A DNA stretch of 64,000 nucleotides from Bacteroidaceae bacterium (GTDB lineage Bacteria > Bacteroidota > Bacteroidia > Bacteroidales > Bacteroidaceae). A program made the translations under genes and the position numbers. The notes beneath the pieces are model-generated. The model saw only the letters and a program-made list of their open reading frames with translations, did not search any database and had not been told where the DNA came from. The DNA lies in NCBI GenBank assembly GCA_017520935.1, contig JAFXEF010000035.1, positions 1-64,000 on the forward strand, in the 5' to 3' direction. The first letter of the stretch is position 1, and the number at the start of each line of letters is the position of its first letter. This document shows, one piece after another, positions 16,831 through 22,602 of the stretch.

Positions 16831-19800
16831 ATGAATCTATTTAACAAAAGACTGAAAATGAGAAAAACACACTTGGCAACACTGATTGCCTCCCTTCTGA
16901 TGGGCAGCACCTTAACAGCCCAAACGGTTACAGATGTAGACCGTAGCAAATATCCCGACTATTCGGAAAGGTTCAACCCAGACTACTCGCTCGTAGCTCC
17001 CGTTCGGGATGCCTCAGCCCCTGGCCGCAGCCGCGCTGCCAGCGGACGTCCCGACCATGTGAACAATGCCGACACGCGCCACTTCCCACCCGTATTCAAC
17101 CAGGATGGCGGTTCGTGTGGTTCGGCCTCGCGCATCTGCTATATGTTCAGCTATGAGCTGGCAGCCTATCGCGACCTCGATGGTTCGAAGGCTGAGAACT
17201 ATTACCCCTCACACTTCGTATGGCTGCACACCAATTCGCCCACCGGCATCACCGACCAAGGCAAAGACGCTTTCGTGACCAAGGTGGGTGTACCTTCTGC
17301 CGCAACCTATGGTGGACAGACCTACTCGTCGCTTTTCGGCTATCAGGATTGCAGCGATAAAGACTTCGGTTGGATGCAAGGTTATGACAAGTGGTTCGAG
17401 GCCATGCACAACCGTATGCTCAAACCAATGCATTTTCCCCAAAGCATAGCTACCGAAGAGGGACGCGAAGCAGTGAAGAACTGGCTGTGGAACCACAATG
17501 GCGACAATTCGTTCGCTGCCGGAGGTATCTGCGGAGTAGGTGTGGCCTCGGGAGGTGTATGGGACGATATCCCAAAGACCGACACCAATGATGAGATAGG
17601 CGTTACAGGCATGTCTTACGTACGTGAATGGGGCACTCAGGTAGACCATGCGCTCACCATTGTGGGCTATGACGACCGCATCGAGTTTGACCTCGATAAG
17701 GACGGCATCATCGGTGAACCCGATGCCGATGAGCTGGGTGCCTGGATCATTGTCAACTCATGGGGTGCCTGGGAGAACGACGGATTCATCTATTGCCCGT
17801 ATGCCTTTGCAGGCAGCGCCTTCAAGAACGATGGCAATCCGGGCAACCGTACGTTCAACGGAGACTTCTGGTGGCCCGAAATCTATAAAGTGCGTAAGGA
17901 CTATCGTCCACTACGTACCATCAAACTGGAGATGGACTATAGCCACCGCAGCGAGATAGCCCTGAGTGCAGGTATCAGTGCCGACATCAATGCGAGCGAG
18001 CCGGAGAAGACTATCCCGTTCGTACACTTCACCTACGCCGGTGACGGCAACTACGGAAACAGCAACCCGGCACCCAAAGTGCCCATGCTGGGAAAATGGG
18101 CCGATGGCAAGCTGCACACCGAGCCTATGGAGTTCGGATATGACCTTACCGACCTTACCGACGGCTATGACATGAACCGTCCGCTCAAGTACTTCTTCAT
18201 CGTCGACACCAGGGCATGGGCACAGGGCAAGGGAACCATACACCATGCCTCCATCATGGACTACCAGTATGACCTGCAGGGAATAGAGACCCCCTTCTTC
18301 ACAAACGAAACTGTAGAAATCAAGAGTGCCGGCAACAAAACCATTATCTCTGTAGTGGTTTACGGAAGCAGCTATCATGCACCACAAAACGCATCGTTTG
18401 ATGGCACTACACTCAGTTGGCAGGCTCCGCAGCGTTCGGCTATGGAGGTGATGGCCTATAATATTTACCGCAACGGCATGCTTGTAGCCCACCTTCCCGC
18501 CACCACGTTGACTTACACCCCCACGACATCTCTCACCTCAGGCGAATATGCCGTGACCGCCATCTATGCCGGTGACAATGAATCGGCAATGGCTACAGCC
18601 AAGGTGCCAATGAGCCTGTCGACACCCAATATGGGTGTCAACTTCGCCCAAGGCGGATTCACCATCCCCGGTGTGTTCGCCTCAAAATATGCCCAAGCCA
18701 CCATCGAATACTGGATAAAGCCAACCTCGCTTATAGACTGGAATCAGAGCGGAGGTCCGGGATGGGGCAACTTCATGTTCCATGCCAATGCCAACGGTCA
18801 GTTTACTGCGGGTTGGGATACCTCAAATCGTCTCAACACCAGCGTTTCGCTCAAAGTAGGCAAATGGACTCACGTGGCCATCGTTGTCAACAACAATAAA
18901 ATGACCGTTTACCTCGATGGCGTGAGTCGTGGCAGCGTGACCTCATCAAGCTATAGTGGTCTAGGCGGATTCGGTGACCTCATGCTCTCAGCAAGTGGCA
19001 ACGGTGCCCAAAACGCACAATACGACGACATACGCATCTGGAATACTGCACGCACCGCCGATGACATCAAGGCCTACAAGGATGTGGAGTTCACGGGTAG
19101 TGTTGCGCCTCACGGACTCATCGCCTATCTCAAGGGTGATCTGGCGACCGACAACAGTGCTTCACAAGTACTCTACGACTGCATAGGAGGCCACCATGCC
19201 ACATTGAGCGGCACCTACACTGCTGTGACCGAGGATGTGCCACAGCTGGGTATGGCCACCGAAGCTCCCACTGCCAGCATCAATATGCCTCAGGGCACCA
19301 TATATGCAGGTATCCCTGTGACTTTCACGGCCACCTGTAACGCTGCCACCAACAAACTGGAGTGGACAGCCGAAGGAGCAGGTATCAACAATCTGGCTGT
19401 GACGGCTCCTACAGTAACCTTTGCCACAGCCGGCACACACACCGTTACGGTGACAGCCACAAGTGCCAATGGAACCACGGTGACAGCCACCTGCGACATC
19501 ACAGTAGAGCCCTCTCCCACGATTGATGCCACTTTCACCAAGACGGCAAGCAATATCCCTGCAGGAGAACGCGTCACCTTCCTCGCCAACACTCCTCTCA
19601 TGGGCTATATCTACGAATGGAGTATGCCTGGAGCCGATATCGAGAATGCCGCCTCAGTGAACGCAGCAGCCAGCTATCAGAGCAAAGGAACCTATACCGT
19701 GACCCTCACCGTGACAGCTCCCGATGGCAGCCAGAAGAGCCATTCTGAACAGATTGAGGTGCAAGAGGTAGCTCCCGAGGCAGCCTTCAGCATATCACCT

Positions 19801-22602
19801 GCCGTAGCAGTCAAAGGCGAAGAGGTCACCCTCAACGACGAGTCGCAGTATGCACCTACCCGCTGGACATGGCAAATCAGCAGTGCCAATGCCAACTACG
19901 TAGCCTATGACCAGCACAGAAGTCTTACCATTGACAAACCTGGCGTGTACGATGTGGCACTCAGTGCATCCAACGATGCCGGTTCCAGCAAGGCAAGCCG
20001 CGAGCGTGCCCTTATCGTAGTCAATGCCGACAGCAAGAACGGACTTCTCTTCTCTAACGATGCAGCTACCGTCACAAGCAATACCGTGCCCCTCGCAAGC
20101 GGACAGACTGACCTCACCATCGAATGGTGGATGAACAGCGGATGGCCTGTGAGCTATTGCAACGGTATAGGCGACACGGAACAGACCCTGCAACTCAAGA
20201 GCAATGCAGGCAAGCAGATGCTCCTCTTCGTAGGAGGCAAGAAGGCAACCTCCGCTGCCGACTACCTTATCCCCGGCGAGTGGCACCATTACGCAGTCAC
20301 TTATAGCAAGGGAGCCGTCAAGTTCTACCGCGACGGATACTTGCACTCATCATCTTCTATCTCTGTCAACAAGCTCCCTGCATTGAAGGCCTTCCGCTTA
20401 GGAGGTTCCGAAGTACCTTTCAAGGGTAGCATAGACGAGCTGCGTGTATGGGGCAAAGCGCTCACCGAGAGTCAGCTCCGCACCTATGCCAATGCTCCCA
20501 TCGAAGATGTGGCTGCAGCTGAAGCAACCGACATGCTGACCCTCTACTACAACTTCAACCAGAGTGGCGGTGATGTGCAGGATGCTACTTCTAACGCCAA
20601 TCATGGTGTGCGGACGAGCTTCGGCCCCGATGGTGACGCATGGGGTCTGTCAAAGGGAGTCTTCTGCCTCAACTTCGACGAGAGTGCGAGCACCGATGTC
20701 ACAGCTACCTACCTCACCAACTATGCCAAGCCCTTTGCCAGCACGACAACATGCACCAACCCCAACCTCCCGTCGCGCGCCTTTGCCCTTCAAGGCTGGA
20801 TATTGGAAAACACCCATGTGAACAGCACCATCATCACGGGTGCCCATGTCGACAAGAACAAGAATACATGTTTCACCGTGACCACGGGATGGGACGGATT
20901 CGGCACGCTTACCGATCATAAGGTATTCCAAACCGTAACCTTGCCTGCCGGAAGCTATGCCTTCGAGGCTCAATATGACGAGAAATACGAAGGACAGTGC
21001 GGCAACAGCTATATCGTGGCTGCTGCAGCAAACACACTGCCTACAACCAGTAACCTCGGTCAAGCACTTGCCTATACCGCCATGAAGCCTAAAGGGCAAA
21101 CTATGAGCAATAAGGTAGAATTTGTGCTTACCGGAGAGACCACAGCAAGCCTCGGTCTGGTAGTCAACATAAACGGCATGAGCTGTATGACCCTACAGCG
21201 CTTCACGCTCACACGCAGCGAAGTGGAGATACTGCCGCAGGCATCAGACATCGTCACCTCACCCGACAAGTTCAGCAACGAGCGTATCTATCATATATCA
21301 TTGCCCTACCACACGGCAGGCCTTACCGCATGGGCTGTAGCAGAGGGAGGCGACAGGCTGACATCGACCCAACAACTTGGCCTTGAAGTAGCCAAGGACA
21401 ATACGGCCCAGCAATTTGCCTTCGTCAGCAACGATGATGGTGCCACTCGCTACCTCTACCACGCGGCAACAAAGAAGTTTGTCAACAAGGACGGTTCACT
21501 CTCCGATGCCCCCACCGATGTGCTCCACTTCAAGGAAGGTGCCTACGACACCACCTTCGTGGCCTACTTCGATGATGCCCACTACATAGCTATGGATGCC
21601 AACCGCCAGCTTGCCATCACAGCTCAGGGCGCACCCGATGCAGGCAATTCGTGTGCAATATACCCTGCAGGCAAGTTCAATCCTCGCGAGGTTATCGCCA
21701 AACTCCCGACAGTACCTGTCACCGAGATCACACTCAGCCATAGCGAGGCCACCCTACAGGCAGGCAATACCCTCACCCTCACAGCCAATGTCGTGCCCCA
21801 CTACGCCACCGACAAAACCGTGGTATGGACGACCTCCGATGCCAACATAGCCATTGTGGTCAAGGGTGTGGTGACAGCTATCGCTCCTGGAACCGCAATC
21901 ATCACTGCCCGTGCCGATGACAAGGAGGCCACCTGTATCATCACTGTAGAGCAGCGCACAATACAGGTCAGTGGCATCTACCTGGATCAGACAAAGGCTA
22001 CCGTCACCGAAGGTGAAACACTTACCCTCACAGCTACAGTCACTCCAGCCGATGCTACGGACAAGACCATAACATGGAGCACCTCCGACCCCTCTGTGGC
22101 CACCGTTGCCAATGGCGTAGTGACAGCTATCACTCCTGGAACCGCCACCATTACTGCCCGTGCAGGCAATAAGGAGGCCACTTGCGTGATTACCGTCGAG
22201 GAACGCTATATACCACTTACCGACATCGTACTCGACCCCACTGAAGTGACCATCGAAGTGGGTGCTCTATTCACCATCACCGCCACACTGCTACCTGAAA
22301 ACACTTCAGAGAAAACAGTATCGTGGACAACATCTGACCGAAAGATAGTCACCGTACGACGTGGTGTCATAGAAGGAAAGGCTCCCGGCACAGCCATCAT
22401 CACAGCCAAGAATGGTGACATCGAGGGCACTTGCGTGGTTACAGTAACTCAGGCTGGTGGTATAGAGCAAGCAACCCAAAACACCGTCAAGGTAGACATC
22501 TACGATGTCACTGGACGCCCCATTCGTTTAGGTGCGACATCTACCAGCGGACTCCAACGAGGTATCTATATCATCAACGGACGCAAGACCATCGTAAAAT
22601 AA
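16831..22602 (+). CDS. Secreted multidomain C1-type peptidase-like protein
   Basis: A 1923-residue exported protein. Signal peptide (either ATG 16831 or 16858), then a papain-like domain at about 80-360: FPPVFNQDGGSCGSAS with candidate nucleophile Cys96, VDHALTIVGYDD (His273), and IIVNSWG (Asn309). An EF-hand-like loop DLDKDGIIGEPD (287-298) sits between the last two. Downstream are an Fn3-like region (about 515-595), a LamG fold (about 600-760), PKD-like domains (about 825-1080), a second LamG fold (about 1085-1240), a galactose-binding-like region, and three Big_2 repeats (about 1628-1875). The last 45 residues (VDIYDVTGRPI ... GIYIINGRKTIVK) resemble a T9SS sorting domain. Probably cell-surface proteolysis or adhesion. 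Confidence 0.88.
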   Translation: MNLFNKRLKMRKTHLATLIASLLMGSTLTAQTVTDVDRSKYPDYSERFNPDYSLVAPVRDASAPGRSRAASGRPDHVNNADTRHFPPVFNQDGGSCGSASRICYMFSYELAAYRDLDGSKAENYYPSHFVWLHTNSPTGITDQGKDAFVTKVGVPSAATYGGQTYSSLFGYQDCSDKDFGWMQGYDKWFEAMHNRMLKPMHFPQSIATEEGREAVKNWLWNHNGDNSFAAGGICGVGVASGGVWDDIPKTDTNDEIGVTGMSYVREWGTQVDHALTIVGYDDRIEFDLDKDGIIGEPDADELGAWIIVNSWGAWENDGFIYCPYAFAGSAFKNDGNPGNRTFNGDFWWPEIYKVRKDYRPLRTIKLEMDYSHRSEIALSAGISADINASEPEKTIPFVHFTYAGDGNYGNSNPAPKVPMLGKWADGKLHTEPMEFGYDLTDLTDGYDMNRPLKYFFIVDTRAWAQGKGTIHHASIMDYQYDLQGIETPFFTNETVEIKSAGNKTIISVVVYGSSYHAPQNASFDGTTLSWQAPQRSAMEVMAYNIYRNGMLVAHLPATTLTYTPTTSLTSGEYAVTAIYAGDNESAMATAKVPMSLSTPNMGVNFAQGGFTIPGVFASKYAQATIEYWIKPTSLIDWNQSGGPGWGNFMFHANANGQFTAGWDTSNRLNTSVSLKVGKWTHVAIVVNNNKMTVYLDGVSRGSVTSSSYSGLGGFGDLMLSASGNGAQNAQYDDIRIWNTARTADDIKAYKDVEFTGSVAPHGLIAYLKGDLATDNSASQVLYDCIGGHHATLSGTYTAVTEDVPQLGMATEAPTASINMPQGTIYAGIPVTFTATCNAATNKLEWTAEGAGINNLAVTAPTVTFATAGTHTVTVTATSANGTTVTATCDITVEPSPTIDATFTKTASNIPAGERVTFLANTPLMGYIYEWSMPGADIENAASVNAAASYQSKGTYTVTLTVTAPDGSQKSHSEQIEVQEVAPEAAFSISPAVAVKGEEVTLNDESQYAPTRWTWQISSANANYVAYDQHRSLTIDKPGVYDVALSASNDAGSSKASRERALIVVNADSKNGLLFSNDAATVTSNTVPLASGQTDLTIEWWMNSGWPVSYCNGIGDTEQTLQLKSNAGKQMLLFVGGKKATSAADYLIPGEWHHYAVTYSKGAVKFYRDGYLHSSSSISVNKLPALKAFRLGGSEVPFKGSIDELRVWGKALTESQLRTYANAPIEDVAAAEATDMLTLYYNFNQSGGDVQDATSNANHGVRTSFGPDGDAWGLSKGVFCLNFDESASTDVTATYLTNYAKPFASTTTCTNPNLPSRAFALQGWILENTHVNSTIITGAHVDKNKNTCFTVTTGWDGFGTLTDHKVFQTVTLPAGSYAFEAQYDEKYEGQCGNSYIVAAAANTLPTTSNLGQALAYTAMKPKGQTMSNKVEFVLTGETTASLGLVVNINGMSCMTLQRFTLTRSEVEILPQASDIVTSPDKFSNERIYHISLPYHTAGLTAWAVAEGGDRLTSTQQLGLEVAKDNTAQQFAFVSNDDGATRYLYHAATKKFVNKDGSLSDAPTDVLHFKEGAYDTTFVAYFDDAHYIAMDANRQLAITAQGAPDAGNSCAIYPAGKFNPREVIAKLPTVPVTEITLSHSEATLQAGNTLTLTANVVPHYATDKTVVWTTSDANIAIVVKGVVTAIAPGTAIITARADDKEATCIITVEQRTIQVSGIYLDQTKATVTEGETLTLTATVTPADATDKTITWSTSDPSVATVANGVVTAITPGTATITARAGNKEATCVITVEERYIPLTDIVLDPTEVTIEVGALFTITATLLPENTSEKTVSWTTSDRKIVTVRRGVIEGKAPGTAIITAKNGDIEGTCVVTVTQAGGIEQATQNTVKVDIYDVTGRPIRLGATSTSGLQRGIYIINGRKTIVK

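Follow-up and report, generated by a model that had tools for sequence, protein, structure and literature searches.

Does a papain-like domain whose nucleophile loop departs from the usual form still make an active peptidase, and if so with which cysteine? The question is raised by a very large gene in a 64,000-nucleotide stretch of Bacteroidaceae DNA (the window; positions 1 to 64,000 of contig JAFXEF010000035.1, assembly GCA_017520935.1). The sequence-only reading of this gene had proposed either a shifted active site under calcium control or a pseudopeptidase scaffold. The loop NQDGGSCGSAS and the residues that it singled out (Gln91, Cys96, Ala99, His273 and Asn309) are all found in the sequence at these numbers. 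The features of the gene are the following, numbered from the first nucleotide of the window.

16831–22602, + strand: whole gene, secreted multidomain protein of 1923 amino acids (open reading frame from ATG; full-length homologues in many genomes)
16858–16920, + strand: signal-peptide-like N-terminus MRKTHLATLIASLLMGSTLTAQ (from sequence only; homologues begin MKKT... or MKH... here)
17047–17901, + strand: papain-fold (C1-like) peptidase domain, residues ~73–357 (AlphaFold2 model, cathepsin S superposition)
17101–17103, + strand: Gln91, predicted oxyanion-hole residue (invariant in readable rows; counterpart of the Gln in other bacterial C1 proteins by alignment)
17116–17118, + strand: Cys96, predicted nucleophile, equivalent to papain Cys25 (114/114 rows; first residue of a model helix)
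17647–17649, + strand: His273, predicted general base (114/114 rows; first residue of a model strand)
17689–17733, + strand: EF-hand-like loop DLDKDGIIGEPDADE, residues 287–301, in a hairpin between the His and Asn strands (conservation; canonical EF loop in the relative L030)
17755–17757, + strand: Asn309, predicted His-orienting residue (114/114 rows; directly after a model strand)
17866–18399, + strand: second conserved domain, a beta-sandwich, residues 346–523 (AlphaFold2 model, pLDDT 89)
18691–19071, + strand: Laminin_G_3, best stretch of two in the protein (Pfam, E 2.4e-34)
19546–19746, + strand: PKD, best stretch of three in the protein (Pfam, E 1.5e-15)
20716–21156, + strand: DUF5013 (Pfam, E 7.2e-26)
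21967–22182, + strand: Big_2, best stretch of three in the protein (Pfam, E 7.1e-29)
22486–22599, + strand: degenerate T9SS type A-like sorting tail ending GIYIINGRKTIVK (TIGR04183 below cut-off; pattern common to homologues)

Alignment with the homologues indicates that translation probably starts at Met10 (ATG at 16858). The LamG, PKD and Big_2 domains named earlier are all present with strong Pfam scores, and DUF5013, missing from that list, has to be added. The Pfam Peptidase_C1 match is weak and confined to the half of the domain that holds His273 and Asn309, and no recognised propeptide was found in the 1923 residues. The draft genome carrying the window (2.9 Mb) was found to hold a single copy of the family. 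It also encodes a second C1-type protein (L001), located on another contig.

Sampling of 151 genomes from the window's taxonomic family gave 37 that encode a relative of this protein, among them the window's own genome. A scan of species genomes gave 172 confirmed stretches, of which 80 were retained; these are mainly MAGs of gut origin (ruminant and other), and also include Prevotella, Paraprevotella and Alloprevotella. When the family profile was run against 296 genomes of the phylum, only ordinary C1 proteins were found besides the window's gene, with matches falling mostly in the His-Asn stretch. One of them (L113) gave a match across the length, although its spacing is Q-x5-C. The family thus looks confined to Bacteroidaceae in the broad sense, within the genomes sampled. 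Conservation was assessed on an alignment of 114 rows, which includes the window's protein and contains a few genomes twice, and on a non-redundant version of 65 rows. It continues past the catalytic domain, through residue 520 and further. The gene neighbourhood is not conserved: of the seven flanking genes, pyrH alone was found, at one of 80 loci. Some genomes carry several copies, with five in genome G096 and six in another genome, where three adjacent paralogues form an array (L185, G125:C34:16000-29500). In this array one paralogue reads QAGPSC and another QDQGSC, both retaining Q-x4-C. Shorter relatives of about 470–550 amino acids (L029-L031, L176-L182), with GGSCAQA and C1-type His and Asn motifs, are devoid of the LamG/PKD tail and mostly devoid of the calcium loop. 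They seem to form a second branch within the family.

The AlphaFold2 model of the peptidase domain (pLDDT 91.4) shows a two-lobe papain-like fold. Cathepsin S superposes on it with Z 17.1 and an rmsd of 2.6 Å over 200 of 219 residues, and cathepsin S, chymopapain and papain all superpose at Z 16–17. In papain, the helix starts at the catalytic Cys, the strand starts at the His, and the Asn follows a strand. The same arrangement is seen here: Cys96 is the first residue of the long central helix (model residues 36–54), His273 is the first residue of strand 213–225, and Asn309 comes directly after strand 242–248. The block containing Gln91 to Cys96 (model residues 31–40) has a confidence of 84, lower than its surroundings. 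The description of the protein as C1-like is therefore borne out by the fold, the superposition on cathepsin S and the C1-type His and Asn motifs. Its sequence is nevertheless remote from the Pfam model PF00112, against which the window's domain scores 18.3 bits, under the gathering score of 20.7 bits; 64 of the 65 family members match this model at E up to 1, the best at 1.3e-7. A sequence search of the PDB with this domain alone gave no match, and the family profile was required to retrieve Cwp84 as the best one (E 1.6e-6, His-Asn half only).

The point at which the domain departs from papain is the distance between the Gln and the nucleophile. The earlier remark that Cys96 lies nearer to the Gln, by one residue, than Cys25 does in papain is right: the spacing is Q-x4-C in 65 of 65 non-redundant rows, while Q-x5-C is typical, although not absolute, in C1. 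The spacing is retained in distant relatives of about 28–35% identity, which read QxGGSCAQA (GGSCAQASG). In HMM alignment with ordinary Bacteroidota C1 proteins, Gly-Ser-Cys96 falls on the Gly-Ser-Cys of the nucleophile, with a single gap after the Gln. Almost all other Bacteroidota C1 proteins examined have Q-x5-C. The exception, L153, lies outside the family, reads NQQGGTCW, belongs to Pfam C1 (E 8.2e-18) and has apparently undergone the same contraction by one residue. Because this C1 member has Q-x4-C, the contraction is, as far as alignments go, unusual but already known within C1, and it does not move the nucleophile. By the same alignments it marks a Bacteroidaceae/Prevotellaceae family.

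Two readings would deprive Cys96 of its role. If GSCGS(A) is aligned with the GSCGSC of papain, a superficial match, Cys96 becomes papain Cys22, and Cys103 or a residue near Ala99 would take the place of Cys25. We consider such a displaced site extremely improbable, since no more than 33 of 114 rows have Cys at position 103, 113 of them have Ala at position 99, the helix begins at Cys96, and profile alignments set Cys96 on the nucleophile. The equation of Ala99 with Cys25 is ruled out by the alignments, the conservation and the AlphaFold2 model; it reflects one conceivable alignment, which is not the right one, and what had been taken for a shifted site is only a Gln-Cys loop that is one residue shorter. 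Neither does the domain look like a scaffold that binds without cutting, even if its nucleophile loop is atypical and papain-fold proteins without catalytic cysteine exist (2b1n, for example). Cys96, His273 and Asn309 are identical in all 114 rows, and Gln91 in all 112 readable ones; the 65-row alignment shows no change at any of the four. With this conservation the motif is not a chance occurrence. Such invariance among relatives down to about 28% identity is unlike the pattern of a dead enzyme, and on this ground the pseudopeptidase was rejected as very unlikely. Cys96, which is invariant, starts the model helix and aligns with the GSC of bacterial C1 proteins, is the likely nucleophile, as first suggested.

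The insert between His273 and Asn309 had been described as looking calcium-binding, and as a sequence pattern this is supported: D-x-D-x-N/D-G...E is conserved in the giant proteins. The loop DLDKDGIIGEPD (residues 287–298) has acidic or amide residues at positions 1, 3 and 5 (D287, D289, D291) and Gly at position 6 (G292), as in an EF-hand. D287 is found in 114/114 rows, residue 289 is Asp, Asn or Glu, residue 291 is Asn or Asp in all, residue 292 is mostly Gly, and E301 is present in 113/114. The 12th residue, D298, is Asp or Glu in most rows but not all, and the near-invariant Glu stands at position 15 (E301). L030 holds DCNGDGVIDEDE at the same place, a textbook 12-residue EF-hand loop. 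Calcium binding by the loop is thus plausible as a prediction. A literature search for a calcium-binding bacterial C1 family returned nothing specific.

Whether calcium would control catalysis is another matter. An ion bound at 287–301 could bring His273 or Asn309 into position, which would restrict activity to the calcium-rich exterior. The loop does connect the strands of His273 and Asn309 in the model, and its ligands are conserved. The CHAP domains of LysK and LysGH15, which have the topology of papain, bear an EF-hand-like calcium site close to the active centre that is required for activity, and in LysK mutations of calcium ligands near the cysteine abolish it (PMC4126393). However, the LysK ion sits elsewhere and its authors assign it a structural role (PMC4126393); both CHAP domains have the site N-terminally, ahead of and surrounding the nucleophile, unlike the loop described here, and these endolysin domains have no sequence match to the window's protein. 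In L029 and L176-L182, moreover, a short turn that lacks the ligand pattern takes this place, yet Gln, Cys, His and Asn are retained. The hairpin linking the His strand to the Asn strand therefore appears to carry the loop as an optional extra, and the absence of the loop from relatives with a full active site argues against a general calcium requirement. We regard the calcium switch as rather unlikely; a structural hairpin or one forming an exosite for substrate binding would be more economical. Hairpin insertions in a papain fold have a parallel in the haemoglobin-binding arm of falcipain-2, which sits between the catalytic His and Asn. This beta-hairpin is a substrate exosite (PMC12617615). 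That work does not present it as an EF-hand loop, and no kinship with the sequence of our insert was shown. A papain-fold enzyme could also catalyse a different reaction, as an amidase, a transpeptidase or by acyl transfer. The remoteness of the sequence from characterised C1 enzymes (under the Pfam cut-off, and aligned with Cwp84 in the His-Asn half only) leaves room for this idea, and the gene neighbourhood offers no clue to the substrate. The best structural matches, however, are endopeptidases of the cathepsin/papain type, and the His motif HALTIVGYDD and the Asn motif WIIVNSWG are of C1 type, so that a change of reaction seems unlikely.

Among known systems, the domain is closest to peptidase family C1A (papain, cathepsins S/L/K; PF00112), with which it shares the fold, the Gln-Cys-His-Asn order and the VGYDD and NSWG motifs. 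It differs from this family by a Gln-Cys spacing shorter by one residue, by the lack of the second cysteine of GSCGSC and of the Trp after the nucleophile, by the EF-like loop between His and Asn, and by its score below the Pfam gathering score. Cwp84 of Clostridioides difficile (PDB 4ci7, 4d59) resembles the whole protein in being a secreted, multidomain surface protein in which a C1A peptidase precedes a beta-sandwich. Its spacing is Gln110-Cys116, and its calcium ion is in the lectin-like domain and not in the His-Asn hairpin (PMC4089489). The second domain of our protein (residues 346–523) is strongly conserved, is recognised by no Pfam model and gave no confident fold match with Foldseek and VIA-align: the best hit was PLAT/C2-like at Z 7.4, below the trust level. 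Its identification with the lectin-like domain of Cwp84 was dropped, as neither program gave a confident match or listed Cwp84 among its matches. Identity with the Paraprevotella trypsin-degradation proteins 00502 and 00509 is also improbable by description: 00502 has a WD40 domain and Ig-like domains, and protease activity is described for neither protein (PMC9477747).

The C-terminus reads YDVTGRP...GIYIINGRKTIVK, with a KTIVK-type pattern common to the relatives, and matches TIGR04183 with E 0.008 and 16.1 bits, under the curated cut-off of 23 bits. The short YDLxGRxV...GIYIINGKKVVVK tails of this protein and its relatives resemble degenerate T9SS signals under the cut-off. T9SS machinery is present in the genome as PorV (E 5.1e-122) and a partial SprA corresponding to its C-terminus (E 3.5e-42), together with 14 T9SS tails over the curated cut-off. 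With these components and other T9SS cargo in the genome, export of the predicted cargo by this system is likely.

From the computed fold, alignment and conservation we infer, with good confidence, an exported and most likely active papain-fold peptidase with Cys96 in its normal place and a probable calcium-binding hairpin that would not switch catalysis. The nucleophile would be Cys96, in its usual position where the central helix begins. Gln91 would reach the oxyanion hole through a loop one residue shorter, His273 would act as base and Asn309 would orient it. The hairpin predicted to join the strands carrying these two residues would probably bind one calcium ion, the likely ligands being D287, D289, D291, the backbone at 293 and the acidic end E301, perhaps with help from E296 and D300. 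The bound ion would probably stiffen the hairpin or shape a substrate exosite. A probable function of the LamG, PKD and Big_2 domains and the beta-sandwich is to bring the enzyme to glycans or glycoproteins as substrates; the type IX system is the probable export route. Peptidase activity is thus probable for this predicted C1-type enzyme, which departs only modestly from a well-known one and is, on this reading, neither dead nor relocated. A bolder view is that of a distinct Bacteroidaceae/Prevotellaceae gut C1 family, combining the contracted oxyanion loop with the EF-hand-like site, in which calcium sets activity or specificity. To this we give only a small chance.

Surface proteins of Prevotella-like gut bacteria can alter the protease balance of the host, as illustrated by Paraprevotella and trypsin (PMC9477747). 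No study of this giant exported protease family was found in the literature searched. Such proteins can be missed in annotation, since the window's member scores under the Pfam C1 cut-off. The family can serve to examine how short the oxyanion loop of papain can become, and what role a calcium loop would play next to the His-Asn pair.
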